Shown here: piece after piece, positions 109-35,834 of the stretch
Numbering within the stretch: position 1 is the stretch's first letter
Layout: the number at the start of each line of letters is the position of its first letter
From: an uncultured delta proteobacterium
Lineage (GTDB): Bacteria > Myxococcota_A > Polyangia > Polyangiales > Polyangiaceae
NCBI GenBank assembly: GCA_903894755.1
Contig: CAITRH010000042.1
Coordinates: forward strand, 1 to 42,736
Reading direction: 5' to 3'
Length of the DNA stretch: 42,736 nt
Program-made: the position numbers and the translations under genes
The notes under the pieces: generated by a model
The model's database searches: none
What the model was told of the DNA's origin: nothing
The model's input: only the letters and a program-made list of their open reading frames with translations

Positions 109-161
109 GGGCCAAAACGGAGGTTGGCGGGAACGGCGGCTTTCGAGATGGGCGTGATTTA
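109..161. repeat. Half copy of dispersed palindromic element (right arm)
   Basis: This stretch matches the right arm of the 147-149-bp palindromic elements at 17175-17323 and 33861-34007. It starts GGCCAAAACGG and ends in GTGATTTA. The left arm is only faintly recognisable (about 73-108) and the central part is missing. The right edge lies 12 bp from the stop codon of the minus-strand hybrid kinase gene, the same placement as in the two full copies. Confidence 0.8.
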
Positions 162-173
162 GCAGCCCCGGAC

Positions 174-3100
174 GTTCATTTCCCACTTCCCACTGCAAGC
201 TGGAACTCCTCGAAAGCAGGTCGCAGCTCTGTCAACGTCCCCGCCGCGTCGTCGGTCATGCCTCGTGCTCCCGCCTGTTCGAGCCGTGCGGCCAGGTCGC
301 GCATGCGTGGCGCCGACACTGTAGCAGACGCCGCTGCCAACATGTGAGCAACGCGCATGACTGTCTTCATATCGTTGACCACAACGGCCTCGCCAAGTGC
401 GCGAAGCTGCGCGCCAGCCTGGTGCACGTAACCTGCCACGACCGTACGCAGAAAAGCAGCATCCGTTCCCACCCGTTTGGTCAGCTCGTTCCGATCAAAC
501 GCCACTGAAAAAGACCCGCTTCTGTCGCCTCGCTTGCCTAACCATCGTTCCAAGCACGACGCCAGCGAGCGCTGCTCCAGTGGCTTGGACAGGTAGTCAT
601 CCATGCCAGCCTCAAAGCACTCCTCTCGAAACCCTCGCATTGCGTGTGCGGTCAGCGCTACCACGGCAACTTGTGGATTCTGCGCCTCGCCGCGACGAAT
701 CCGACGGGTCGCTTCAAAGCCATCCATGTTGGGCATCTGCACATCCATGAACACGAGGTCGTAGGACTGATGCGATAGGGCCTCGAGTGCCTCTTTGCCA
801 TCCACCACCGCATCTACGACAACGCCAAGCTGTTCGAGCATGTGTACTGCAACCTTGCGGTTCGTGACGTTGTCTTCCGCAACCAGAACTCGGCCCCCAC
901 GCGCAGACCTAGGCGCCTCGGACCGCGCCCGCGGCAGCTGCGAGCGTCGTACCAACAGCCTACGCAAGCACGCTCGCAGCTCCTGCTTGCGGACAGGCTT
1001 GGCCATCGACGCCGCAAACCGCTCGTGCGCCACTGGCCGATCTCCCAATGTCGTCAAGACCACCAGTTTGCTCGACGCAAGGCTCGGGTCGCTCTTGATA
1101 GCCTTGGCCAGCATCTGCCCGTCGAACCCAGGCAGACCAGCTTCCACGAACACAACAGAAAAGGGCCCCTGCGGTCCTCGCAATACGCGCAGCGCATCAA
1201 TGGAGTCGGCCGCTTGCACCGTGCGACATCCCCATGCCTCCAGCATGGACGCCATCGCCTCCCGGCTCGACACCTGATGATCCACCAGGAGCACAGGAAC
1301 ATCGAAGCGCTCCTTGGAAAGTCCTTCCTGCCTTACAACCCCTAAGGGGACAGAAAACCAAAAGGTCGAGCCCTTTGCAGGCTCGCTGTCGACACCTATG
1401 TGTCCTCCCATGCGCTCCGCAAGGTCCTTGGAAATGGCCAACCCTAGGCCTGTACCTCCAAACCGACGGGTGTGCGAGCTATCGGCCTGAACGAATGGGC
1501 GAAACAGCCGCCTCATGGTCTCTTCTTCAATCCCGATCCCTGTGTCCCGAACCGAAAACCTGACCACACAGGCCGCGTCAACGGTCTCGCAGGTCACCCG
1601 AATTGCCACCTGCCCCTGCTCCGTAAACTTGATGGCATTGCCAACCAGATTGACAAGGACCTGACGCAATCGAGCGGGGTCTCCAGAGACCAGCTCGGGA
1701 ACGTCGTCTGCGGCGAGGTAGGTCAGCTCGAGCCCCTTTTCCGATGCTCGAAGGGCAAACATGTCCAGTGTGTCGTCGAGCACCGCAGTCAGATCGAACT
1801 GCCGTGTCTCAATGTCGATGCATCCCGCTTCTATCTTCGAGAAGTCTAGGATGTCATTGATGACAGTGAGCAGTGCTTCCGTGCTGCTGCGGATGATCCC
1901 TGCAAACTCGCGCTGCGTGTCTGTGAGCTCCGTATCGAGCAGGAGCGAGGTCATCCCCAGAACCCCGTTCATGGGAGTTCGGATCTCGTGACTCATGTTG
2001 GCAAGGAACTGGCTCTTGGCCAGGTTGGCGGCTTCTGCAGCCAGCATCGCCTCTTTGAGCTGCTGCTCGGCGTCGCGCCGCTCGGTGATGTCCTCGCAAA
2101 TCCAGATGCTGCCTGCTGTGGGATCCCCGGGATCCACTGCCTTTCCGTGGATGCGAATCCAGATCAGCGAGCCGTCCTTGCGACACATCTCGCGCTCGGT
2201 GCGGTATTCCCCCCCTTGGATCAGCACAGGATACCAGTGTGCCCCCATCTCCTCGAAGGACTCTTGCGTCGGATGGAGTATGCGGATAGATTGGCCCACC
2301 ATCTCCTCGGCGGAATACTGGAACATCTCCAGCATCTTGCGGTTCATCCACACCAGTTTCCGATCTTGCAATCGGGATATGCCCACGCTGGTGTGTTCTA
2401 GAATCACATTCTGCTCGAGCAGGATCGCATTCAGTCGATCTTGAAGGTGCCTCCTCTCGGTCGTGTCCGTGTGCGTCCCCGCCATGCGCAGGGGATGTCC
2501 CTCGGGGTCCCTCTCGGTGACCTTGCCGCGGTCCAGGATCCATAACCACTCGCCACTCTTTGTCCGAACCCGGTGCTCACACTCGTAGCGAGAGGTCTCT
2601 CCTGCAAAATGAGCGTGCAACGCTGCAGTGCTCCGAGCGAGATCGTCGGGATGGACCATCTGGCCCCAACTGCTTGCCTGGCTCGTGACTTCACCTGCCT
2701 GATAGCCGAGCATTTCGGACCAGCGGCGGCTGAACACAGTCTCGCCGGTCAGCACATTCCAATCCCAAAACCCGTCGTCCGTGCCGTCCAGTACCCGCGT
2801 AAGGCGCGCTTCGCTCTCACGAAGGGAGTCCTCCGCAGCTTTCCTTGCAGTAATGTCGTTGAACGACACCACCACAGCCTGCAATGTGTCCGTGCCCAGA
2901 TCCCGAATGGGCTCGGTGCTCACCGTGATCCACCTCAGACCGCCATCTGGACGGAACACCCCCACCAGTACGTCGCGTCGCGGCTGCCCATCACGTAGGC
3001 TCACAGCGGAAGGCAGCTCGGAGGGAGGCCATGGGGTCCCGTCCGGTGTCACCATCCTCCAAGCAGCATCATCTACGGTGCGCGCTAAGCATTCATCGGC

Positions 3101-4036
3101 AGTCAGTCCGAGGATACGCGCTGCAGCAGGATTGACTGTCACCAGCGTGCCATGAACATCGTAGACCAGAACGCCTTCGGCCAATGCAGTCAACGCAGAG
3201 CGGTAACGCGCTTCGCTCTCACGCAGTGCGGTCTCGGCAGCTTTGAGCGGCGTGATGTTCTCTTCTACCCCAAGGTAATGGGTAATCCGACCGCCGCTGT
3301 CGAAGATCGGAGCAATTTGCGCCGACTCCCAGTACGAGGTCCCGTCCTTTTTCCTATTGTGGAAAGTTCCCCTCCAGGTTTGCCCGCCGCTGATAGTGCT
3401 CCAGAGTTCGGCTTGATCGGCAGGACTGGTATCGCTTGACTTTAACAATCGTGAGTCTTGGCCCATAGCCTCCGCCAACGAGTACCCTGTCTGCTCGGTA
3501 AAACACGGATTGGCATACTCGATGTGCCCATCGACGTCGGTGATCACAATCGACACAGGACTCTGCTCCACCGCAAGAGAAAGCTTGCGACGCTCATCCT
3601 CCAGCCGACGTCGGTCGGTAATATCGTGAATAATCGAATAGAGGAGCGTACTCCCTGCGATATTCAGTGGCCCCGAATGAACCTCCACATCGCGCACCTC
3701 GCCGCTGGCCAGGCGGTGCCGAAAGAAAAAGTGCCAGCGCTCCTCTATCTTCGCCTGGGCCATCTCGTCGGAGATTTGCTGGGGCGTAAGCATATTGATC
3801 TCGTAGATATGCATCCGACGAAGCTGCTCGAGCGGATAGCCATAATAGGTGCTGGAAGCCTCATTGGCGTCCACGATGCGCCCGTCGCTCGGATCGACCA
3901 GCAACATCGTTACCCGGGACTTCGCGAAGAGCGTGCGAAAGTACAACTCGCTCTCTTCAAGCGCTTTCTCCATGCGCCCCTTCTCGCAGTCTGCCGAGGA
4001 TCGTCCCTCTTTTTCTACAGCCGGCAGCTTGCTCAT
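174..4036 (-). CDS. Multi-PAS hybrid sensor histidine kinase with two receivers and HPt
   Basis: A 1286-aa soluble hybrid histidine kinase for phosphorelay signalling; no membrane segment is visible, so the ligand is probably cytoplasmic. Five PAS/PAC modules occupy roughly residues 25-140, 145-268, 272-400, 405-530 and 535-656. The HisKA domain has the phospho-accepting His at 683 ([11 protein letters not shown]), followed by HATPase_c at about 785-898 (N box, DTGIGI, GTGLGL). Receiver 1 (913-1028) has Glu965 where the phospho-accepting Asp should be, so it is probably a pseudo-receiver. Receiver 2 (1048-1166) is intact with Asp1098 (FMDVQMP) and Lys1151. A C-terminal HPt domain keeps its His at about 1231 but has AA in place of the usual KG. 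The gene is divergent from the VWA lipoprotein gene with 124 bp between starts. The start shows no clear Shine-Dalgarno; Met22 is an alternative. The input signal and output partner are unknown. Confidence 0.93.
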
Positions 4037-9088: not shown

Positions 9089-12000
9089 CTACTTAGGAGT
9101 GGGTATGACGCCGCAGACGCCGGGGGTGCCAGCACCGCCGCAGACTTCTGGGTCGACACATGTGCCGCAATTGAGGGGGTGTCCGCACCCGTCGGTGGTA
9201 TTTCCACAATTGAGGTTCTGTGCGGGACAAAGGCGAGGCGTGCAGGACGTAATCCCACAGACTCCGGTAACTCCGCCGCCGCCGCAGGTTTGCCCGGCGA
9301 TGGTGCAAGTGCCGCAGCTGAGAGTACCGCCGCAGCCGTCGCCGGCAGCTCCACAGAAGAGACCGAGCTGCAAGCAGGTCTTTGGGGTGCAGGCACTTCC
9401 GCACTTTCCGGGGAATCCGCCGCCGCCACAGGTTTGCCCTGCGACTGTGCAAGTGCCGCAGCTGAGAGCATCGCCGCAGCCGTCACCTGCAGGACCGCAG
9501 TTGAATCCGAGGGCTGTGCAGTTTGTTGGCAGGCACGCTCCGGAGTCAAGGGAGGCGCATTTGCCAGGGGCGCCACCGGCACCGCAGTATTGACCGGTGG
9601 GGCAGGTTCCACAAGCGAGGGCGCCACCACACCCGTCACCGGCGGGGCCGCACACGAAGCCTAGGCTTGTACAGGTCGCTTTGGTGCAAGTGGAAGCGCC
9701 ACAGACGCCAGGAGTGCCGGCGCCGCCGCAGGTTTGTGGGTCAACGCAGGGTCCGCAGTTGAGGATATTGTTGCAGCCGTCCCCGGTGAATCCGCAAGCA
9801 AGGCCCTGGGTTTGGCAGGTCTTGGGGATACAGCCACCGCAGACGCCTGGAGTACCACCGCCGCCGCAGGTTTGGGGCGTGGAGCAGGGGCCGCACTGGA
9901 GGAGGTTTCCGCAACCGTCGCCGATGGACCCGCAGGTAAACCCAAGCTGTCCGCAGGTCTTGGGTTGGCACACGGGGGGGACGTCGGGAGTCACGCAGGA
10001 GGCGAGGTCGAAGAGCATGAACTCGAGGACCTTTTCCTGAGCGGTCATGGTCAGGGTGCTGCCGCAACTGCCGGGGAAGGTGGCCGATCCACTCGAGTTG
10101 TTGACATGGAAGTCGCTGAAGAGGACCCTTCCACATTGTTGTGCGGCGGCGGAACCTACCGGGGTGTTGAAGGTGAGGTGCTGGACGGTGTTCTTGTCTG
10201 GGTTGGGGCTCGTGTTGATGCCGTAGATCCACCCCTGCGTGGGGGCGACGACAGCGTCGACGTCATGCCGGGTGACATTGAGGGAGACCTTTCCAGCCGT
10301 GGTGAGGGCACCGAGGTTGCGGAGCCAGTCGGAGAAGGCCTGACCACGACCGCCTACAATGGTGGTATCGATGGTACCGAGGAATGGGTCTTGCGGCGAG
10401 CTCTGGTTCTTGTTCCAGGTAGCGACGGTATTGAATGGAGACACATTGTAGAGCCAGGTGTAGCTGTAGTGGGTGGCAAACACCCTACCGCCTTTGTTGG
10501 CGTAGTCGACCAAGTTCTTCTGGTGCGTCGTGTTCTTCGAGTACTCGCCCCCCTGGCAAGCGAAGATGGCCATGTCGTATTTGGCCAGAGTGGCGGGGAC
10601 CCCCATGAGATCGTTGTAGGATGGTGTTGCTGAGGAAATCTTGGCGCCGGGGCCGCTGGGGGGGAGGTAAAACTGGATCCGTCCTCCGGTCACGGGATTG
10701 GTGAACTCGCTGTCGTCGATTCCGATCTTGCGAAGGACACACTCGAGGGCGTCGACGGAGCCGGTGACCATGGCGGTAAGAGGGATATTGCCCTCCGTTT
10801 TGTTTCGAGGGAGGCGGGTCTGCTCTGGGAGAAGGACCTTTTCGGTGCAGGCGGTGATGGCGGGGACCGTGATCTGACGTCGCCAGCGACCGAGCTGGAT
10901 GACGAGGGGAAAGTCAACGCCGGCGGGGACATTGGTAAGGGTGAAGGTTCCGTCAGCTGCGCTGATGGCGGTGACGAGGGGGGCACCGGAGGCTTGTGCA
11001 CCGCACTGGTCGCAGGAGACGCCTGTGGGGAAAGCCGCGACGGTTTCGTTGGGGACGTAGACGACAGCGCCGTAGAGCGGGTCGCCGCAGGTGGGACAAC
11101 TTGTCCATTTGCCTTTGGCTGGGGAGTAGACAGTGCCTTTGACGGTAGTTGTCGCACCGCCGTCGCACTTGACCTGTTTTCGACAGAAGTTTGTGCAGGT
11201 GCTTCCACATTTACCAGCGAGGCCACCGCCGCCGCAGGTGTCTGGGTCCGTGCAGGTTCCGCAGTTGAGGACATTGCCGCAGCCATCACTGGTTTGGCCG
11301 CAGGAGAGTCCTTGTTGGGTGCAGGTGCTGGGGACGCAGGAGTGTCCACATTTGCCGTATTCTTGACCGCCGCAGCTATCTGGTGCGGTGCAGTGGCCGC
11401 AATCGAGGAGCGTTCCGCAGCCGTCGCCGACGGAGCCGCAAGACAGCCCGAGCGCCAGGCAGGTTTTGGGGATACACCCGGTGGTTCCTCCGCAGGAACC
11501 GGGCTGAGCGCCGCCGCCGCAGGTTTGCGGTGGGGTGCAGTTTCCACAGTCGATGGCGTTCCCGCAGCCGTCCCCTGCAGGACCGCAGTTCAAGCCGAGC
11601 GCGGAGCAGGTCGTGGGGACACAAGGATTGGCGTCGACGAGGACAGGGGAGCCACAAACGTAGGGAGTTCCACCTCCGCCGCAGGTTCCCGCCTCGCACG
11701 TACCGCACTGGACGAGGTTTCCGCAGCCGTCATTGGCGGGGCCGCACTGGATCGACTGATCTAGGCAGGTGCGAGGAGGGCAGGGAGGTTTGCCGCATGC
11801 GCCGGAGACACCGCCGCCTCCGCATGACTCTCCATTTATGCAGGTTCCACAGGAGAGCGTGGCGCCACATCCATCTCCCGTGCTACCGCACGCGAGCCCC
11901 TGCTGGACACAGGTCTTCGGCGTGCAGGTTGTCCCACACTCGAAAGGGAGGCCGGCGCCGCCACAGGTTTGCCCGGTCGGGCAATCGCCACAAGACAGCA

Positions 12001-12301
12001 TGGCCCCGCACCCGTCGCTGATGCGACCGCAGTTGGCCCCGCCGTCAAAGAAGTCGGCGCAGATTTTGGCCGCGCAGTTGGGGGGGATGTATGCGTCACT
12101 CGACGCGTCCCCGAAAATACTTCCGTCTGGACGGCGCACGGTGCCGTCGCCGGCGCCCGCCCCATCGACGAGGGGGATGGACGCATCGACGCTCCCTCCC
12201 CCGTCCTTGTTATCCGTGAAAACCGAACTACTTCCGCTACCGCCGCACGCCGCCAAAGCTAACGCGCACGGTAGGGCCACGAATCTGACGGGCCAACGCA
12301 T
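9089..12301 (-). CDS. Cysteine-rich repeat lipoprotein (6 + central module + 6 repeats)
   Basis: A roughly 1070-aa predicted lipoprotein. The ATG at 12301 is preferred over an upstream one because GGAGG (complement of 12308-12312) precedes it and the signal peptide MRWPVRFVALPCALALAACG then has its lipobox Cys at 19. Twelve repeats of 44-47 aa follow the pattern C-x4-C-x6-C-G-x4-DGCG-x4-CG-x-C-x5-CGGGG-xPG-x-CG, with eight cysteines each. Six repeats lie before and six after a central module of about 380 aa. That module starts with a carboxypeptidase-regulatory-like beta domain (VKGTVYSPAKG), then a segment reminiscent of a glutamine-amidotransferase/ThuA-like fold (YDMAIFACQGGEY, GGRVFATHYSY). 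The latter assignment is inference. A surface or periplasmic binding role is likely. Confidence 0.85.
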   Translation of the reverse strand: MRWPVRFVALPCALALAACGGSGSSSVFTDNKDGGGSVDASIPLVDGAGAGDGTVRRPDGSIFGDASSDAYIPPNCAAKICADFFDGGANCGRISDGCGAMLSCGDCPTGQTCGGAGLPFECGTTCTPKTCVQQGLACGSTGDGCGATLSCGTCINGESCGGGGVSGACGKPPCPPRTCLDQSIQCGPANDGCGNLVQCGTCEAGTCGGGGTPYVCGSPVLVDANPCVPTTCSALGLNCGPAGDGCGNAIDCGNCTPPQTCGGGAQPGSCGGTTGCIPKTCLALGLSCGSVGDGCGTLLDCGHCTAPDSCGGQEYGKCGHSCVPSTCTQQGLSCGQTSDGCGNVLNCGTCTDPDTCGGGGLAGKCGSTCTNFCRKQVKCDGGATTTVKGTVYSPAKGKWTSCPTCGDPLYGAVVYVPNETVAAFPTGVSCDQCGAQASGAPLVTAISAADGTFTLTNVPAGVDFPLVIQLGRWRRQITVPAITACTEKVLLPEQTRLPRNKTEGNIPLTAMVTGSVDALECVLRKIGIDDSEFTNPVTGGRIQFYLPPSGPGAKISSATPSYNDLMGVPATLAKYDMAIFACQGGEYSKNTTHQKNLVDYANKGGRVFATHYSYTWLYNVSPFNTVATWNKNQSSPQDPFLGTIDTTIVGGRGQAFSDWLRNLGALTTAGKVSLNVTRHDVDAVVAPTQGWIYGINTSPNPDKNTVQHLTFNTPVGSAAAQQCGRVLFSDFHVNNSSGSATFPGSCGSTLTMTAQEKVLEFMLFDLASCVTPDVPPVCQPKTCGQLGFTCGSIGDGCGNLLQCGPCSTPQTCGGGGTPGVCGGCIPKTCQTQGLACGFTGDGCNNILNCGPCVDPQTCGGAGTPGVCGASTCTKATCTSLGFVCGPAGDGCGGALACGTCPTGQYCGAGGAPGKCASLDSGACLPTNCTALGFNCGPAGDGCGDALSCGTCTVAGQTCGGGGFPGKCGSACTPKTCLQLGLFCGAAGDGCGGTLSCGTCTIAGQTCGGGGVTGVCGITSCTPRLCPAQNLNCGNTTDGCGHPLNCGTCVDPEVCGGAGTPGVCGVIPTPK

Positions 12302-12549
12302 GCTGCACCTCCGAATGCACTTACGGTACGAGCTTTGGGAAGCGATGCAATGACATTGAAGGGCCAAGGCGATCTTTTGTTGGGGTCGCAGAATTCCTGC
12401 GCAGTCTTACGATGTACGAGACAGGCAACAAGGGGCAGAAATAGTCCGACATCGTGTCCGGCGTCCAACCCAACGTTGCACTCATGTCAAGCATAAAAGG
12501 GAGCACGAAAGGCAGGTGGGGGACCGTGGAAGTCCGATAGACTCGCACC
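12302..12549. other. Divergent intergenic region, lipoprotein / trmO
   Basis: These 248 bp separate two divergent genes and should hold both promoters. Apart from the GGAGG of the minus-strand lipoprotein at 12308-12312, no convincing box, hairpin or repeat is visible. Confidence 0.5.
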
Positions 12550-16603: not shown

Positions 16604-17125
16604 CTATTTCCACTTGACGCTGCAGCCGATAGGAGACGTCTCGGCTACCTCAGGCAATCGTCCATCGAGAAGCGCATCAAGAGCCAACCGAAGATCCTGA
16701 CGCTTCACCCTGGAGGCGTCCCCGTAGTTGTCGTCAATCCGCCCGTGGTAGCGAAGCAGTCGAGCCTGATCGAACACGAACACCTCGGGCGTGAAACGAG
16801 CCCCAAGTGCCCGCACTGTCTCCTGCGCGTCGTCCCGTACATACGGGAACTCGAAACCGCGCTGACGCCCGCGAAGAACCATCTTGTCCATGGAATCCGC
16901 TGGATAGCGCACTGTGTCGTTGGCGTTGATCGCGAGCAACCGTACCCCTTTGTTTCGATAGTCGCGCTCCAACGCGACCATCCGCTCCTCGTATGCGACC
17001 ACGTAAGGACAGTGGTTGCACGACACAATCACCACAAGCAGCTTCGCCTCGCCGAATTCGTCCAGCGTATGCAAATGACCGTCGGTGCCGGGAAGCTCAA
17101 AAGCGGGACAAGGGGTACCAAGCAT
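16604..17125 (-). CDS. Thioredoxin-fold (redoxin) protein with CNHCPYV motif
   Basis: A 173-aa thioredoxin-fold protein of the AhpC/TSA-like redoxin group. The active site is VSCNHCPYV, and the protein ends in GCSVKWK, both typical of this small family. LLAINANDTVRYPADS follows the usual pattern. ATG 17125 (MLGTPCPAFELPG) is preferred, as the upstream part starts only from a TTG at 17164. No signal peptide is visible, so it is probably cytoplasmic. A dithiol oxidoreductase role is likely; the substrate is unknown. A full copy of the palindromic element lies just upstream. Confidence 0.85.
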   Translation of the reverse strand: MLGTPCPAFELPGTDGHLHTLDEFGEAKLLVVIVSCNHCPYVVAYEERMVALERDYRNKGVRLLAINANDTVRYPADSMDKMVLRGRQRGFEFPYVRDDAQETVRALGARFTPEVFVFDQARLLRYHGRIDDNYGDASRVKRQDLRLALDALLDGRLPEVAETSPIGCSVKWK

Positions 17126-17174: not shown

Positions 17175-17323
17175 TAAACCACGTCCAGATCGAGCCCCGC
17201 CATTTCTGCCAGACGAGGCTTTGGCCGAGGAGCCCGCGCAGCGTACTTAAAGTACGTGAGCAGGCACCGCAGGCCAAAACGGAGGTTGGCGGGAATGGCG
17301 GGTTTCGATCTGGACGTGGTTTA
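17175..17323. repeat. Full 149-bp dispersed palindromic element, copy 1
   Basis: An imperfect palindrome whose ends are TAAACCACGTCCAGATCGA and its exact complement. The arms pair over about 50 bp to CTTTGGCC/GGCCAAAA, and the centre is CGTACTTAAAGTACG, a palindrome in its own right. The right end TTA (17321-17323) is the complement of the TAA stop codon of the upstream minus-strand ATPase gene. A second full copy is at 33861-34007 and a half copy at 109-161. Confidence 0.92.
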
Positions 17324-19144
17324 CCCCATCGTGGTCACCCGAAGGACCTCTTCGAGCGTCGTCAAACCCGCCGCTATCTTCGACGCTGCAGCTTCCCGAA
17401 GACTCCGCATCCCTCGCCCACGTGCCAATGCCTCGATCTCGGTGGAAGCCTTCCCGCGTGCAATCAGCTCCCGTACGTCCATGTCCGCCGTCAGCATCTC
17501 GAAGATCCCACTTCGCCCGAAATACCCCGTGTTCCTGCACCTGGGACACCCCTTGCCCTTCCGAAGTCCCCCCTCGTTCGGCGACTCCAGTAAAGGCACT
17601 CCAAGCTTCGCGATCTCGTCGGCCGCTAAATGCGTCGGTACCGCGCAGTGCGGACACACCGTGCGCACCAGACGCTGCGCCATCACCCCTAGAAGCGCTC
17701 CGCCTATGAGAAATGGCGTAACCCCCAGATCCGCTAAACGTGTCACCGCCTCGGCCGCGCTGTTGGTGTGCAATGTGGACAACACCAAATGCCCTGTCAA
17801 CGCCGCCTGGACCGCGTTCTGTGCCGTCTCTCGATCCCGAACTTCCCCCACCATGATGATGTCTGGGTCCTGACGTAGGATATGACGAAGCGCGGTCGCG
17901 AAATCGAGGTCGATCTTCGGCTGCACCTGAATCTGATTGAACCCTTCGTAGACAATCTCGATGGGGTCTTCGATGGTCGTGACATTCACCTCGGGCCCTG
18001 CCAACGCTTTGAGCGCCGCGTAGAGCGTCGTCGTTTTCCCCGACCCCGTGGGACCTGTCACCAGAATCATCCCGTGCGGGTGCGCAATCCACCCTTCGAA
18101 AAGCTCGCGCTCGATCGGGTCGAACCCAAGCTGCGAGAGATCTTGCACCGCGACTTCAGGATCGAAGATGCGTAGCACCACCTTCTCCCCAAACGCCGTC
18201 GGCACCGTAGACATCCGAAGCTCGACTTCCCGTTCCGCTCGCACCGTCTTGATGCGCCCATCCTGAGGACGACGCTTCTCGGCAATGTCCATTCTTGCCA
18301 GCGTCTTGAGACGCGACACCACCGGCGGATGGGCCGCGGCGGGCATGTTGTGCACCGCATGCAACACGCCGTCGATGCGCAATCGAACCAGGGACCCGTC
18401 CCGCCTTGGCTCGATATGGATATCGCTCGCGCGTTGGTCGAACGCGTAGCGAAGCAGGTACTCGACCGCTGCGACCACGGGACGATCGTCGGCCGCAAGC
18501 TCGCGGTTGGTGGACGCGAGGGTCACAAGCTGCTCGAGGTTCTGGATCGCGGGTCCCGACGTGGCTGCATCCACAGCCGCCGTGATGCTTCGGTTGAACC
18601 CGTAGGCGTGATCCACAGCCTTGAGGATCTCGCTCTTGGCCGCCAGGCGAAGTTCCACCGGCCCTCCCACTAGCGACGACAGATTGTCGGCGAGGACCCG
18701 ATCGAACGGATTGGCGCAGGCGACCACCAGCGCTCCTCGGCTCCATTCGAGCGGAAGCACCACGTGGCGCTCGGCAAAAGGTCCCGACAACGTGTGCGCG
18801 ATCACCTTCATGTCGAGCTTGAGCGGATCGATGCGCTGATACCGCACGCCTGTCGCCACCGCGATGGCCTCCGTGACGATCTCTTCGTCGAGGACCACGC
18901 CTGGACGGTCTTGGACTGGGAACGCATACGAGGCGACGATCTCGACAGGCGACACCTCGTAGGTCTTGCGACGTACCCGTTCGCCCCGTTCCCGCAGAAG
19001 CCGAGCGCGCACGGAGATTTGCGCGGCGAGAACTTCCTTGGACTGCGCCGGGGTCAGAAGTCCAGCCCGCACCAGCGCGTCGAGTACGAAGTCAAGGTTG
19101 AAGTCGGCAGGGCGAAGCGAGACGGGTGGGGGAGCGGACGGCAC
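17321..19144 (-). CDS. GspE/PilB-type secretion or pilus assembly ATPase
   Basis: A 607-aa hexameric AAA-type ATPase of the type II secretion/type IV pilus family. An MshEN-like N-terminal domain (about 15-182) is followed by N2 and the ATPase core. Walker A is GPTGSGKT (364-371), the Asp box is around EDPIE (392-396), Walker B is IIMVGEVRD (429-437) and the His box is STLHTNSA. The tetracysteine zinc motif is present: CPHC (497-500) and CPRC (533-536). No cognate secretin, inner-membrane or pilin gene is nearby. The TAA stop is contributed by the end of the palindromic element. Only 6 bp separate it from the upstream hypothetical gene, suggesting an operon. Confidence 0.9.
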   Translation of the reverse strand: MPSAPPPVSLRPADFNLDFVLDALVRAGLLTPAQSKEVLAAQISVRARLLRERGERVRRKTYEVSPVEIVASYAFPVQDRPGVVLDEEIVTEAIAVATGVRYQRIDPLKLDMKVIAHTLSGPFAERHVVLPLEWSRGALVVACANPFDRVLADNLSSLVGGPVELRLAAKSEILKAVDHAYGFNRSITAAVDAATSGPAIQNLEQLVTLASTNRELAADDRPVVAAVEYLLRYAFDQRASDIHIEPRRDGSLVRLRIDGVLHAVHNMPAAAHPPVVSRLKTLARMDIAEKRRPQDGRIKTVRAEREVELRMSTVPTAFGEKVVLRIFDPEVAVQDLSQLGFDPIERELFEGWIAHPHGMILVTGPTGSGKTTTLYAALKALAGPEVNVTTIEDPIEIVYEGFNQIQVQPKIDLDFATALRHILRQDPDIIMVGEVRDRETAQNAVQAALTGHLVLSTLHTNSAAEAVTRLADLGVTPFLIGGALLGVMAQRLVRTVCPHCAVPTHLAADEIAKLGVPLLESPNEGGLRKGKGCPRCRNTGYFGRSGIFEMLTADMDVRELIARGKASTEIEALARGRGMRSLREAAASKIAAGLTTLEEVLRVTTMG

Positions 19145-29273: not shown

Positions 29274-32200
29274 TTGCTGCTCCCCAGTCTTTCCACTGCT
29301 CCCAAGAACCCACCCACATCAGGCATAGCGACCGAGGGAAGCGTCGGGGCGAAGCCGCATATTCGGCCCCCCGCAGGGCGCCAGTGGTCCCGAACGCTCG
29401 CTAGGTTCTTCTGCGCCCTCTTCGCCTGCATCGGGGTCTTGCCCTTTGCCGTCATGACGCTTCTTAAATGGAGCGGCCTCCGAAACTGGGCGGCCGACCA
29501 AACCACCGCCATCCTCCATCAACAAGGCATCGTCGCCCGCTACAACCTCGATGTCCAGGTGATCCCCCTCGCCCTCGAGCTCACCAACGTCCGCGTCGAC
29601 TCTGTTGACGGTGGCGACCCGCTCCTCTTCGCTAACCGCGTCACCGTCCGCCCTCGCCTCTTCTCGCTCCTAAACGGTAAATTCACCATCGACCACGTCG
29701 ACATTGACTCGCCTCGTATCCGCGTCGTCCTGCGCTCAGGCAAACTCGTCAACCTCCCCATCGAGCTCCCCAAGTCCGAGCCGGACCCCACGAACAAATT
29801 TGAAGTCCCCTTCAATGTCTTCGCCGTCACCGACGCAAGCATCGACCTCGACGTTGACGGCGCCAGGCTCTTTGCCTCCGATATCGACATCGACGTCAGC
29901 GCAGAATCCGAAGGTTCCGGCGGTTCGATCCTCGAGATCGCCCTTCACGCAGGCAAAGCCCGATTCCAACTTGCACGCGTGGTTGGCGACAAGGGCGACC
30001 AGGACAACCAGGGCGGCACCGCTCCCACGGTCCATGTCGACGACGACGCGTTGTGTTTCATCGACGCTCGCCTCCGCTACGAGCCAAACCGCATCACCGT
30101 GCGACGCTTCACGGCCACAGGCTCCGTCGATCTCGACCCCTTCCCCGACACCACACCTCGCTGCGACCTCGACCTCACTGACAAACGGCGCGTCGAAGTC
30201 GAAATGAACTACGTTCGCGTGTTCCTTCCGCCAACCCACGACGACAAGCTTCGCGTCGACGCTCGCCGGATCCGCGCTCGCGCCCCCCTCGCCCTCGCCC
30301 AACGTGCCGTGTCCCTTCCCGAAACCGACGGCTGGATCGGGCTCGACCTCGGCGGTCAATACACCGGCACGACCATGCTTCCGGAAATCTCCGGAACCCT
30401 CGAGGCCCACGACATCAAGCTCGATCACTTCCGCTTTGCCCAGGAGATCCACGCAGACTTCGCCATCCAGCGCGACATCATCCGCAGCAAAAGCCTGGTC
30501 GTACGCATCGCCGACGGGGAAGCGGCCCTCTCGAACGTCGTCGTCAAAGACCTTGCCCGCGGCGGCGCCATCGAAGCCTCCGCCATGCTTCGCGGAATCA
30601 ACTTCACCTCCCTCATGCGCGACCTCGGCGTCCATCCCCACTCCTACGTCGCCTGGGACATCAAAGACATCTCCCTCCCCAAGCTTCGCGGCACCTTTGT
30701 CCCCCTCAAGCTCGACGCCGACTTCGTCGCCCACACCACAGGGTTTGCCATCTACGACCACCCCGCCACAGACCCCGCCCGCGCCCGCCTCTTCGGCCTT
30801 GGCACAGCCGACATCACCGCCCACCTCGCCGTGCGTCCCAATGCCGTCGAGTTCCAAAGAGCCAATGTGCGCGTCGGCGGCGCTAGCCATGTCGAAGGCG
30901 CGTTCGTGTCGCTCGGGTTCGATGAGCAAATCCGTGCCGAGGTCCCTCATGCCCATGTCGATCTCGCTGACATCACGCCGGTGGGGGCCGTGCACATGGG
31001 AGGCAAAGCCGACCTTGAATTCCACATGGGGGGCAAGTTCAGTCACCCCACTCCCGAAGGGGAAATCCGCAACTTCGAAGACTTCTCTGTCGCCGACCTG
31101 CGCTTTGGCAATCTGTCGTCGGGACGGTTCAAGCTCGATGTCTCCGGGCCTGTCCTCGACCTTAGCGGTGTGCGGGCAAAGAAGGGGGCGAGTCCCTACG
31201 AAGTCCCGAGTGTCCGCTTGGACTTTGGACGCCACGGAGGTGGCTTCGTGGTTGACGCCCTTGCCACTTCCACAGGCCTTGGACTGCGAGACCTCTTTGC
31301 CATGTTCAAGTTGGAGGACGACCCCCGTTTCGAGGGGCTCGACGCTAAGCTTGCAACCCGCGGCCTTGCCCGGGTCCATGTTGCCATCGGAGGACCCGAA
31401 GACCGCTGCCGCGGCGGCTTGATCCAGATTGAAACGCGCCTGAGGACCTTCGATATGAACCTCTTCGGAGAGCGCTTCGACCAAGGCGAGGCAGAGCTGC
31501 GCATCGATTGGACAGACCGACGTCCTGGCCTCGTAGGCGCTGACATTGAAGTCCCATCGCTGCTCTTGGTGAAACGAACTCCAGAGGGAGCCTCGGGCAC
31601 CATTGCAGGTTCCGCCGCCCTGCGCACTGGAGGAGCACTGTCAGCAAACTTCGTGATCGAAGGGATTCCAATCGCTTCCCTAAACAGCCTCAGTGTGTCC
31701 TCCACCGTGGTCGACGGGCGCATCTCCGGCGTCGCGCAGGCTCAAGGGACCCTCGACGAGTTCTCCCAAGGTGGCTTCACAGTGGAAGCCGACGTCGACG
31801 TGACCCCCGTGCGCATTCGACGTCGCGCAGTGCTTGGCAAATCGCGTGTCCACCTCACCATGACCGACGCTGCGGCGCAGACGCCAGTATCCGATGATAA
31901 GAGCGGCTGTGGACGTCCCATCGGCCGTCCCTTTGACAAAAAGGCCTTCCTTGCAGACCGATCGAGTCGCGGAAGCTACACGGTGGACGGGACCCTGCTT
32001 GATGGACAAGTACGTCTTCGCAAGGTATCGCTGACGCGGGCTAAGGCGCCGGTGCTCACGGGACGGGTGGAAGTGCGCGCCCTTGACCTCGGCACACTAT
32101 ACCGAGCCTTGCACAGTCCCGAGCGCGCTGGCGAAACCAGTAGCTCAGAGTTTTCTGGTGAAATATGGGGAGACCTTGCCCTTGACGATGTCCCGCTGCG

Positions 32201-33833
32201 GGATCTTGCCAACGCGCGCGCCCGGTATTTCCCTGGGGTCACCGTGATCGAGACCAGCGGGGCACGTCTTGCGTTGGTTCCTCCCAAGTTGCCAGTGTTG
32301 GTGCAGGGGGACATGCTCACGTTACCCGGTGAGCTCGAGGCACGGCTGCAGACGTCGGCTGGATTGAGCAGTGGCGTAAGGGTGACTGGAGGCCTTCAAG
32401 ACCTGAGCAAAGCGGACCCGCAGATCGGAGTGCGACTGGTGTTGGATCCGCTGGATCTTTCCGTAGTGCCGAAGTTTGTCCCCAAGGTCGAACGGGCGTC
32501 AGGGACAGTCCGCGGGGAGGTCACGATGACCGGATCGCTGCAAGCGCCGAAGGTTTCAGGCGAGTTTTCGCTGCGAGCCGACGATCTTGATATCCGCGGG
32601 TTGCAGGGGGGTCTCAGCGATGTCGTGCTGGACGCCAAGGCGAGCGAGAGGGAAATCGAGGCAACCGGTTCGGCGAGCTTGGCGGGGGGGACCTTGGCGT
32701 TTCGAGCTGCAGTCCCGCTTCGAGGGTTTGCATTCGGGAACGTCGACGCCATGTTTGGTCTTCGCAACATCAGCCTGACTCCCGCGGACGGGATTTCGGC
32801 AACGTTGGATGCGGACCTAGCCATGAAGATCGACACGTCCGACCCCACCGTGCTTCCTCACCTAAGAGGGGAGATCACGTTGAAGTCCTTCGACTACACG
32901 CGTCCCATCGTGCTTGCATCGGACTTCGCGAGTCTGGGGGGACGTACCAAGCGCACGGTGGTGGAGTCCTATGATCCGTCTCTGGACACGCTGACCTTTG
33001 ACTTGCGACTAACCGCGCGTCAACCGCTCCGTGTCCGCAACAACCTTGTAGACTTGTCGCTTGGCATTGATTCCAACGTACTCGAGGTGAGCGGCACCAA
33101 CCAGCGGTTTGGGTTGCGAGGGGGGCTTAAGACCAATGCTGGGGGACGGTTTCGATTTCGGTCGAACGACTTCGATATTCGCCAGGGGCTCATTCGGTTC
33201 GACGATCCGACGCGCATATCTCCCAATGTCGACGTGGTGGCGGTGACCGAATACCGGCGGTCGACGGACAGCTCGGCGGGGGCGAGCTCGGTAGCGTCGG
33301 CGGGAGTGGCGGGAGTTGGGTCATCGCGGGGGGGGGCATTGTGGCGCATTGCGCTTCATGCATACGGCGACACGGAAAGGTTACGACTTGACCTGACGAG
33401 CGAGCCACCGCTGTCGCAAGAGGATCTGCTTTTGCTGCTTACGGTGGGGATGACGCGTGCGGAGCTTGATCAGCTACAGGCGGGATCACTGGGGGCGAGT
33501 CTTGCGTTGAACTACCTAGGTGCGGCGAGTGGGGCGGACCGACTGGTACGGGAGGCGATTCCACTGATCGACGATTTCCGGTTTGGAAGTGCCTATTCAT
33601 TGCGTACGGGGCGGACCGAGCCGCAGCTCACGCTGGGCAAGCGGATCACGGACTCGGTGCGGGCGACCGTGACGACAGGGATTGCAGAAGATCGACAAGT
33701 GCGGTCGGACATTGAGTGGCGTCTAGGGCAGCGGTTCAGCGTGCAGGGGTCTTACGACAATGTGTACGATGTGACGTCGTCGTCGCTTGGAAACGTTGGG
33801 GTGGACCTGCGGTATCGTCTCGAGTTCCGTTGA
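29274..33833 (+). CDS. tamB: TamB-like translocation/assembly module protein (DUF490)
   Basis: A 1519-aa envelope-spanning protein. One membrane segment near residues 43-65 anchors a very long beta-rich periplasmic domain with AsmA-like features at the start (LELTNVRVDSVDGGDPLLFA). The C-terminal DUF490 region (about 1100-1519) contains GGLKTNAGGRFRFRSNDFDI, SQEDLLLLLTVGMTRAEL and the closing beta strands LGNVGVDLRYRLEFR. TamB-type proteins move lipids or outer-membrane proteins between membranes, commonly with a BamA-family partner TamA; none is in the window. The start is a TTG with no nearby ATG, 15 bp after the RIC gene. It ends against copy 2 of the palindromic element. Confidence 0.85.
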   Translation: MLLPSLSTAPKNPPTSGIATEGSVGAKPHIRPPAGRQWSRTLARFFCALFACIGVLPFAVMTLLKWSGLRNWAADQTTAILHQQGIVARYNLDVQVIPLALELTNVRVDSVDGGDPLLFANRVTVRPRLFSLLNGKFTIDHVDIDSPRIRVVLRSGKLVNLPIELPKSEPDPTNKFEVPFNVFAVTDASIDLDVDGARLFASDIDIDVSAESEGSGGSILEIALHAGKARFQLARVVGDKGDQDNQGGTAPTVHVDDDALCFIDARLRYEPNRITVRRFTATGSVDLDPFPDTTPRCDLDLTDKRRVEVEMNYVRVFLPPTHDDKLRVDARRIRARAPLALAQRAVSLPETDGWIGLDLGGQYTGTTMLPEISGTLEAHDIKLDHFRFAQEIHADFAIQRDIIRSKSLVVRIADGEAALSNVVVKDLARGGAIEASAMLRGINFTSLMRDLGVHPHSYVAWDIKDISLPKLRGTFVPLKLDADFVAHTTGFAIYDHPATDPARARLFGLGTADITAHLAVRPNAVEFQRANVRVGGASHVEGAFVSLGFDEQIRAEVPHAHVDLADITPVGAVHMGGKADLEFHMGGKFSHPTPEGEIRNFEDFSVADLRFGNLSSGRFKLDVSGPVLDLSGVRAKKGASPYEVPSVRLDFGRHGGGFVVDALATSTGLGLRDLFAMFKLEDDPRFEGLDAKLATRGLARVHVAIGGPEDRCRGGLIQIETRLRTFDMNLFGERFDQGEAELRIDWTDRRPGLVGADIEVPSLLLVKRTPEGASGTIAGSAALRTGGALSANFVIEGIPIASLNSLSVSSTVVDGRISGVAQAQGTLDEFSQGGFTVEADVDVTPVRIRRRAVLGKSRVHLTMTDAAAQTPVSDDKSGCGRPIGRPFDKKAFLADRSSRGSYTVDGTLLDGQVRLRKVSLTRAKAPVLTGRVEVRALDLGTLYRALHSPERAGETSSSEFSGEIWGDLALDDVPLRDLANARARYFPGVTVIETSGARLALVPPKLPVLVQGDMLTLPGELEARLQTSAGLSSGVRVTGGLQDLSKADPQIGVRLVLDPLDLSVVPKFVPKVERASGTVRGEVTMTGSLQAPKVSGEFSLRADDLDIRGLQGGLSDVVLDAKASEREIEATGSASLAGGTLAFRAAVPLRGFAFGNVDAMFGLRNISLTPADGISATLDADLAMKIDTSDPTVLPHLRGEITLKSFDYTRPIVLASDFASLGGRTKRTVVESYDPSLDTLTFDLRLTARQPLRVRNNLVDLSLGIDSNVLEVSGTNQRFGLRGGLKTNAGGRFRFRSNDFDIRQGLIRFDDPTRISPNVDVVAVTEYRRSTDSSAGASSVASAGVAGVGSSRGGALWRIALHAYGDTERLRLDLTSEPPLSQEDLLLLLTVGMTRAELDQLQAGSLGASLALNYLGAASGADRLVREAIPLIDDFRFGSAYSLRTGRTEPQLTLGKRITDSVRATVTTGIAEDRQVRSDIEWRLGQRFSVQGSYDNVYDVTSSSLGNVGVDLRYRLEFR

Positions 33834-33860: not shown

Positions 33861-34007
33861 TAAACCACGTCCAGATCGAACCCGCCATTTCTGCCAGACG
33901 AGGTTTGGCCGAGGAGCCCGCGCAGCGTACTCGACGTACATGAGCAGGCACCGCAGGCCAAAACGGAGTATGGCGGGAATGGCGGGTTTCGAGATGGGCG
34001 TGGTTTA
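33861..34007. repeat. Full 147-bp dispersed palindromic element, copy 2
   Basis: The same palindrome as at 17175-17323, with about 90 per cent identity by eye. The left end is TAAACCACGTCCAGATCGA and the right end is the complement of TAAACCACGCCCATCTCGA. The centre is CGTACTCGACGTAC. It lies between the convergent tamB and acyl-CoA dehydrogenase genes, and its TTA end (34005-34007) is the dehydrogenase stop codon. Confidence 0.92.
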
Positions 34008-35834
34008 GACGGCGAAGACAGCTTCGTCGACGTCGAGAGCAGTTCGGTCCCCGTCCTTCATGATAGCGAGCGAGGCGCCGATTTCGGGAACGACATTTCT
34101 TACAAAGAACCGCGCAGAGGCCACCTTGCCGCAGTAGAACGCGTAGTCCACGTGGTCCTGCGGGAGCGACTCCAAGCGCGTACGGGCGATCAGAGCCATC
34201 TCCAGAAGCAGCTTACCGGCGTAGAGTCGTCCAGTGGCATGCAGCATACGGGTAGCGAAGAGCTGCACCATGCCAGGTTGGCCGGGTTGGCTGTACCCAC
34301 GCAGTACGGCCTGCATGGCATCATAGTCGGCCAAGGCGCCCTGCATGATCGTGAACTCGCGCTCCATGCCAGGGGTGTTTGCGTGTTGGCCTATGAAGTC
34401 AGAGATCTCCTTCAGCCAGAGTGCAAAGCCTTTGCCCTTGGAGCTGGTCATCTTTCGACCCACCAAGTCCATGGCCTGGATGTAGTTCGTCCCCTCCCAG
34501 ATGGGATATATCCTAGCGTCGCGTAGAAGCTCCGCGATCGGGTACTCTTCGGAGAAGCCGTACCCGCCGTACACCTGGAGGGCTTCCGAGATGCACTGGA
34601 GCGCCATGTCGGAGCAGTACGCTTTGACAATGGGGGTATTGACCTCCAGTATTTGGGAAGCAGCGGTCACGGTTGCAGGCGCGCTGCTATGCTTCTTGAG
34701 ATCCACGCAGTAGAACGACTTCAGCACCATCGCTCGGAAAGCCTCGATATGGGCTTTTTGAAACATGAGCATTCGGCGCACGTCCTCATGTCTGACAATG
34801 GCGGCTCTCTTGCCTTTCGGGTCGGCTGTGGGTCTGCCTTGTACGCGCTCACTGGCGTATTGGACCGCATTGTGATAGGCAACCGCGGCGAGTGAAAGCG
34901 CCGCAGTTCCGGTCATCAAGCGTTCTTCATTCATCATGTTGAACATTTGGGCCAACCCGAGGCCAACCCCCGCGACAGGCGGTTCGCCCAGTAGGAATCC
35001 CAGGCAGTCGCCATCGTCACCAAAGGACAGCACACAGGTAGGAGATCCTTTGAGGCCTAGTTTATGTTCGATCCCGACGCAGCTCACGTGATTGAAACTG
35101 CCGATGCCTCCTTTTTCATCAGGAAGGTACTTCGGGACGACAAACAGCGAGAGGCCCTTGGTGCCGGGCGCGGCGCCTTCCGTGCGGGCCAGGACCAAAT
35201 GGATGATGTTTTCTGTAACATCTTGGTCTCCACCGCTGATGAAGCACTTGGTGCCGTTGATCTTGTATACGCCGGGACTGGACGTTGGATTGGCCTTGGT
35301 GAGCGCATCGCCCACGTCCGAGCCAGCGGATGGCTCGGTCAAGTCCATGGTTCCGGTCCAGTCGCCACAGAACATCTTCTCGAGGTAGGTGTTCTTGATC
35401 TGCTCACTCCCGAACTCTTCGATGAGGCCCGCTGCGCCCGAGGTGGCCAGATACAGGGTCGAGACTGCAGGATTGGCCCCGACTAGGTACTCATTGATGG
35501 CCCACAAGACACAAAGGGGGACCGCTGCGTCGTTCTTGGGGTCGTAATTGCTGCTGGCCAGGCCGTTGTGCTGAACGAAGAAGTAGGCATCCTTGGTAGA
35601 CTGCGGCGTGGTCACCTGGCCGTTCTCGAACTTCGCCCCGATCTTGTCGGAGTCCCCACAGGACGGAGCGACCTTCTCACGAGCCATTTTTAGCCCGTTG
35701 TCTAAGATGACCTCGATGTCGTCTACAGTATAGGTGCCTTTGAATCTGTCGGTATCTAGTATCAGGCTCATGTCGAGCCACTCACGGAAAATGAACTTGT
35801 GGTCGCGGTTGCTGTTCTTGAAGTTCGATGACAT
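34005..35834 (-). CDS. Acyl-CoA dehydrogenase (DmdC-like, extended C-terminus)
   Basis: A 609-aa FAD-dependent acyl-CoA dehydrogenase, longer than the usual 380 aa because of an N-terminal and a C-terminal extension (acyl-CoA_DH_C type). Signatures are WTGTMDLTEPSAGSDVG near 160-175, KCFISGGDQD near 210, YGGYGFSEEYPIAELLRDA near 425 and the catalytic Glu region IYPIWEGTNYIQ near 447. It catalyses the first beta-oxidation step; the substrate chain length is not deducible. It is 49 bp after mpl on the minus strand. Its TAA stop is the end of the palindromic element. Confidence 0.93.
   Translation of the reverse strand: MSSNFKNSNRDHKFIFREWLDMSLILDTDRFKGTYTVDDIEVILDNGLKMAREKVAPSCGDSDKIGAKFENGQVTTPQSTKDAYFFVQHNGLASSNYDPKNDAAVPLCVLWAINEYLVGANPAVSTLYLATSGAAGLIEEFGSEQIKNTYLEKMFCGDWTGTMDLTEPSAGSDVGDALTKANPTSSPGVYKINGTKCFISGGDQDVTENIIHLVLARTEGAAPGTKGLSLFVVPKYLPDEKGGIGSFNHVSCVGIEHKLGLKGSPTCVLSFGDDGDCLGFLLGEPPVAGVGLGLAQMFNMMNEERLMTGTAALSLAAVAYHNAVQYASERVQGRPTADPKGKRAAIVRHEDVRRMLMFQKAHIEAFRAMVLKSFYCVDLKKHSSAPATVTAASQILEVNTPIVKAYCSDMALQCISEALQVYGGYGFSEEYPIAELLRDARIYPIWEGTNYIQAMDLVGRKMTSSKGKGFALWLKEISDFIGQHANTPGMEREFTIMQGALADYDAMQAVLRGYSQPGQPGMVQLFATRMLHATGRLYAGKLLLEMALIARTRLESLPQDHVDYAFYCGKVASARFFVRNVVPEIGASLAIMKDGDRTALDVDEAVFAV

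Follow-up and report, generated by a model that had tools for sequence, protein, structure and literature searches.

Both complete copies of a short palindromic element in the window, i.e., the whole 42,736-nucleotide stretch of DNA analyzed here, are inserted, as judged by comparison with orthologues and computed empty sites, inside the pre-existing stop codons of their host genes. The element is best explained as a non-autonomous miniature inverted-repeat element (MITE) with a TA target (TNA in two relatives), from which harmful insertions have been removed by selection, and we consider this explanation reasonably probable. A repeat that supplies a gene's stop codon is known in kind from the pneumococcal BOX repeat; the present analysis adds the family, the rule by which TA or TNA targets regenerate the stop, and the test against a background.

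Results

Sequence and copies of the element

The window holds two complete copies and one half copy (Table 1). The arms of copy 1 run from 17175 to 17226 and from 17272 to 17323, and copy 1 folded as RNA has a minimum free energy of -101.9 kcal/mol (z of -13 vs shuffled sequence). In the window's genome (6.78 Mb, 778 contigs), at least 40 copies were scored from 152 first-look candidates. The element is multicopy, carries terminal inverted repeats and has no coding capacity, as is the definition of a MITE. TA is kept at both ends in 28 of 46 projected copies, most of the remaining ones being cut or mutated at one end, and the flanks outside the terminal TA of the fetched copies are unrelated to one another. 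Neighboring elements have one TA in common (L052, L054, L066), as expected after TA duplication; the TA at both ends and the single shared TA fit a TA-target MITE of the IS630/mariner type. The inner sequence begins with A at both ends (TA/AACC...GGTT/TA). An Rfam search with the element gave no match above the gathering score. Deletion forms of 40 bp (L070 3990-4029) and 89 bp (L062 2598-2686) are both still TA-ended, and the 89-bp form supplies the stop codon of both neighboring genes (665 and 413 codons). Elsewhere in the window, a tandem repeat of 21 bp, AGGTGGTCTGGTCTTTGGACC, occupies the contig start (1-73), and an array of ~140-bp coding repeats, cysteine-rich-looking, extends over 9089-12367 (families D1-D5 and D8).

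Table 1. The element, its conserved core and the adjoining genes in the window
Feature	Position	Strand	Basis or remark
Element copy 1, complete	17175..17323	+	149-bp near-perfect palindrome, TAAACCACG...CGTGGTTTA; strand set by core
Hairpin core of copy 1, conserved	17220..17278	+	covariance model R1: 81.8 bits on +, 16.4 on -
Element copy 2, complete	33861..34007	+	147 bp, 91-92% identical to copy 1
Hairpin core of copy 2, conserved	33904..33962	+	R1, 72.6 bits
Half copy, right arm only	110..161	+	
Type II/IV secretion ATPase (T2SSE, MshEN), host gene	17321..19144	-	Pfam; orthologue C-termini
TAA stop of ATPase	17321..17323	-	TA target duplicate and first A of element; empty-site reading TAG
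Acyl-CoA dehydrogenase, host gene	34005..35834	-	Pfam; orthologue C-termini
TAA stop of acyl-CoA dehydrogenase	34005..34007	-	from element end; empty-site reading TAA
PAS/HisKA/receiver/Hpt hybrid kinase	176..3973	-	stop 14 bp from half copy; Pfam
TamB-like gene	29454..33833	+	3' end 27 bp from copy 2 left arm; Pfam
Redoxin gene	16604..17125	-	start 49 bp from copy 1 left arm; Pfam

Stop codons of the host genes

The terminal TTA of each complete copy, with which the right arm of the palindrome ends, had been named in the original prediction as the stop codon of the minus-strand ATPase and acyl-CoA dehydrogenase genes, and it is the last codon of both. About 19 orthologues were compared with each host protein; none carries the element behind its stop, and, with two exceptions, their ends fall 0-6 residues from the same point. 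The orthologue C-termini match the window genes, ending in ...EEVLRVTxxx (ATPase) and ...AAFATV (acyl-CoA dehydrogenase) directly before the stop. Since the orthologues finish at the same residues, the two window proteins are not shortened and the element lies inside their own stop codon; the proposed check against element-free orthologues thus gave matching C-terminal ends and no truncation.

The half copy had been placed 12 bp from the stop of the hybrid kinase, and the gap is 14 bp (half copy to 161, stop from 176). In the window, all three right arms do point toward the 3' end of a gene, as described originally, but the left arm of copy 2 likewise faces the 3' end of the TamB-like gene. 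That the orientation is always the same was tested in nine locus sets and does not hold as a rule: stops are found at the right arm in seven cases and at the left arm in six in the window's genome, and the nine sets pooled give 53 right-arm vs 31 left-arm stops (P = 0.02, uncorrected and with copies that are not independent). The right-arm excess is a mild bias at most, with a small-sample effect on top in the window's three of three.

Enrichment in stop codons

Empty sites were computed, each of 33 complete copies being collapsed by script to one TA before gene calling. Read in this way, 11 copies lie in a TAA or TAG stop, 21 are intergenic and 1 is coding; the rest of the non-coding TAs in this sequence give a background of 88 stop and 1287 intergenic sites (88/1375, 6%), which is inflated on its non-coding side by missed genes, the home-made codon-usage gene caller covering 77% of the sequence. 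The excess of element copies at stop codons in the window's genome corresponds to an odds ratio of 7.7 (Fisher P = 4.5e-6). It is no reading-frame accident, because the stop is present after the element is removed, which is the case in 11/11 stop-codon copies.

The same holds across nine Myxococcota locus sets, in which copies were compared with insertions simulated at the non-coding TAs: a stop is the site of 75 of 167 copies vs 427/4024 TAs (10.6%), with an odds ratio of 6.9 and P = 9e-28, and each set has a P below 0.02, these P values being descriptive since some sets came from an exact pattern search and copies within a genome are akin. The exact stop position is occupied by 13 of the 15 copies in the QMMC genome. 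In the relatives' sets, gene stops gather at the element edge, ~66-78 nt from the core center (82-96 in G167), and gene starts do not. The distance from element end to stop, proposed originally as a check across genomic copies, therefore came out in favor of the prediction, with 11/33 copies exactly in the stop.

Target rule

In two relatives, G004 and G131, the core lies between 3-bp TNA direct repeats (TAA, TTA, TGA, TCA), the middle base being equal in 13/13, as in TNA-target MITEs of the IS5/IS1031- or Harbinger-like type. Each of these triplets spells a stop on one of the two strands, and with a TA target the adjoining A of the element completes a TAA either way round, so that regeneration of the stop follows from the target rule itself. 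Beyond TA, the target flanks show a weak preference only (CTAA and ATAG are favored) and no extended motif.

Hairpin core across the Myxococcota

A core of ~50 nt is found again in other genera, families and classes of the phylum, where the hairpin arms around it differ; by record name, its carriers are Sandaracinaceae, Polyangiaceae, other Myxococcales/Deltaproteobacteria MAGs and Minicystis rosea. The alignment of the TAAACAG type (31 copies) has 53 pairs, 31 of them changed on both sides, and 97.7% of the cells are paired vs 84.5% after shuffling. Non-Watson-Crick cells on the core + strand are 129 G-U and 10 A-C (alignment A2, copies in L126-L254). The + strand is the better folder in 138 of 167 copies (143/167 for the arms alone), a bias that is partly by construction, as the predicted structure was picked on the + strand, and that comes from few independent lineages. 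These data suggest that one hairpin strand may be kept foldable, as RNA or as single-stranded DNA; relative to the gene next to it, the favored strand is mostly antisense. In L071-L094, L125-L204, L216-L255 and L276-L315, the core shows helices that covary and unpaired bases that are fixed (GA/GCA), with arms exchanged between lineages. Several copies of G051 (L237, L238, L242) adjoin tRNA-like sequence at the element edge.

A second MITE family and candidate transposases

A second TA-ended MITE family, more numerous than the element, is present in the window's genome, with ends TAAACCAAACCCATCTTG... (also TAAACCAAACCCATCTTGAAAACCGC), 422 end matches and a different cargo. Its ends (TAAACC) are identical to the element right arm at 22/26 positions. 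The terminal TAA is a gene stop at 9/93 of its ends vs 10/61 for the element (P = 0.22), the expectation being ~3-5%. A sister MITE with other cargo and the same stop use indicates that the habit goes with the TA-type ends, not with the hairpin or a 3'-UTR module. Palindromic cargoes of the second family are, e.g., CCCAGGACCCAGTCCTGGG and CTCACCCCC...CCTCTCCCTCGACAT; its sites include L213 536-824, L215 1462, L256-L275 and L390-L449, and many of its ends are at contig ends. The second family probably broke the assembly.

DDE_3 fragments are present in the window's genome, one of them inside or beside a TAAACCAGACC... end (L215), of the end type that matches the element right arm at 22/26. A MITE-type end beside a DDE_3 fragment points to an IS630-type transposase as the likely mover, and from the TA ends and this terminal match we infer that the transposase is IS630-like. 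A complete transposase with matching ends was not found in the fragmented 778-contig assembly. IS630 copies whose ends could be read (L212, L214) were considered as the partner and rejected, as their termini differ (GAGCTACTA). Fragments of an IS630-family transposase gene stand at the contig starts of L212, L213 and L214; they end in CCGCGAGCTACTA, and their termini do not resemble those of the element.

Discussion

In the reading we favor, the element would be a non-autonomous palindromic MITE that depends on a DDE-type transposase acting in trans, with cleavage at TA and duplication of the TA. A stop codon, TAA or TAG, struck in this way would be re-closed at once as TAA in any orientation, leaving the protein unaltered. 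Insertions within or ahead of genes would be harmful and lost over time, and copies would accumulate in stop codons and at gene 3' ends by that loss. We infer that selection, not active aiming, is behind most of the stop enrichment. Genomes have neither flanking genes nor positions in common, not even the congeneric G004 and G131; a search for ancestral positions common to genomes found none convincing, the sole identical pair being one genome in duplicate. The proportion of copies that lie between divergent genes is 16% in young sets and 3% in older ones, and it rises with the identity to the nearest copy (Spearman 0.88, P = 0.002). Both the unshared positions and the age trend fit a mobile element filtered by selection. 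Yet passive selection may explain only part of the enrichment. Between convergent genes no promoter is at risk, and stop TAs are still preferred in these intervals (3/5 vs 24/140, P = 0.045), and strongly so in tandem intervals (8/16 vs 55/581, P = 7e-5); weighting for the tetranucleotide preference of the target raises the expected stop share from 6.3% to 9.5% only, vs the 33% seen. A transposase that prefers stops or gene 3' ends beyond TA and selection, or a coupling to the ends of transcription or translation, is possible but rather doubtful in our opinion: it would account for the 7-10 fold preference for stop TAs over other TAs even in convergent and tandem intervals, for a habit already present in young, ~95%-identical copies, and for the exact stop position of the QMMC copies, but more than half of the copies sit elsewhere, flanks beyond TA are only weakly preferred, the sister MITE is only ~2-3 fold over background per end, and the age gradient fits selection. 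Of the two origins proposed in the original prediction, site-directed insertion at gene ends is thus close, in that there is a TA/TNA site and stops are over-represented; the transposase may seek gene ends or, more probably, selection removes the insertions elsewhere.

The other proposed origin, a 3'-UTR or terminator module inherited with the stop, is disfavored. If the hairpin were a terminator or an mRNA stabilizer held behind genes by selection, its high stability, its location at gene 3' ends and the covariation of 31/53 pairs would fit, but we regard such a function as unlikely: a pre-existing stop is used, no positions are common to genomes, the sister MITE without the core has an equal stop habit, and the foldable strand lies antisense to the adjoining gene more often than not (stops at 53 right arms vs 31 left arms, with 138/167 folding better on +). 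Nor do the ends look like an intrinsic terminator, as CGTGGTTTA at the element ends is followed by variable sequence and the arms finish TTTA, with no U-tract. By sequence logic, any gene whose reading frame runs into an inserted TAA would end there, and the TAA might merely close the stumps of genes cut short by the element; this is very improbable and was rejected, given that the original stop is still there after removal in all 11 copies and that the orthologue ends of the two window genes agree. An origin by single-strand mobilization, as chromosomal retron msDNA or as REP/RAYT elements, has in its favor hairpins of ~144-150 nt with one strand kept foldable, and msDNA-like repeats are reportedly present in Nannocystis (Lampson and Rice, 1997, by its title). 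We find it scarcely credible. The 3-bp duplications of TNA suggest that both strands are cut, in staggered fashion; an msr-msd beside a reverse transcriptase was not found, reverse transcriptase being absent from several high-copy genomes (G004, G131, G028, G184, G217) and no core lying beside any that was found; and a Y1 (HUH) transposase flanked by the repeat was not found in the carriers, with no Y1 transposase in G004, G051, G167 and G318 and no core beside the four matches elsewhere. Integron attC-like sites, prompted by the folding of the strand antisense to the upstream gene, were also considered and set aside, as the ends misfit RYYYAAC/GTTRRRY and the copies are scattered.

Among known repeats, BOX of Streptococcus pneumoniae is the nearest in behavior, encoding the stop of 36 genes at their very 3' end with no evidence of truncation vs orthologues in the part of that study drawn on here (Croucher et al. 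2011, PMC3049150). Both BOX and the element are, on that partial account, short repeats that supply a gene stop without truncation; BOX is modular (boxA/B/C) and is likened to the element by behavior, not by sequence. The same part of the study describes pneumococcal repeats as over-represented between convergent genes and reads them as tolerated parasites, and it does not contain the regeneration of the stop by TA/TNA or the background test given here for the element (PMC3049150). The pneumococcal RUP is a ~107 bp MITE with TA ends and inferred IS630-type (IS630-Spn1) mobilization in trans (PMC2229807); RUP and the element are both TA-ended, the element differing in that it is a single long, near-perfect hairpin whose core occurs phylum-wide, and no complete matching IS was found for the element. 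ERIC/IRU, a ~127-bp intergenic repeat with TA ends that may affect mRNA stability (PMC2229807), differs from the element in its core and, by inspection, in its ends, and the element has no Rfam match. REP/REPIN sequences with RAYT are palindromic and mostly downstream of genes, between convergent or tandem genes (PMC3733652); the element is palindromic too, but has no GTAG tag at its foot, has target duplications, and several of its carriers are without a Y1 transposase. A search covering part of the literature found no paper on the element's family.

Taken more broadly, and as a tentative and rather doubtful proposal, an Rfam-absent hairpin family of the Myxococcota may move with its core and foldable strand conserved while arms and target rule are swapped, the captured ends spelling stops both ways, maybe with active targeting of gene ends. 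If true, this would be a general stop-codon-sparing way of life, in which each lineage captures ends that spell stops in both orientations. For annotation, this means that a mobile element can contribute a gene's final codon and leave the protein unaltered. The effect was measured against background in nine locus sets, with the second MITE family as an internal control, and it offers a simple and testable reason why some bacterial repeats may become stop codons: TA/TNA duplications would rebuild the stop either way and spare the gene.
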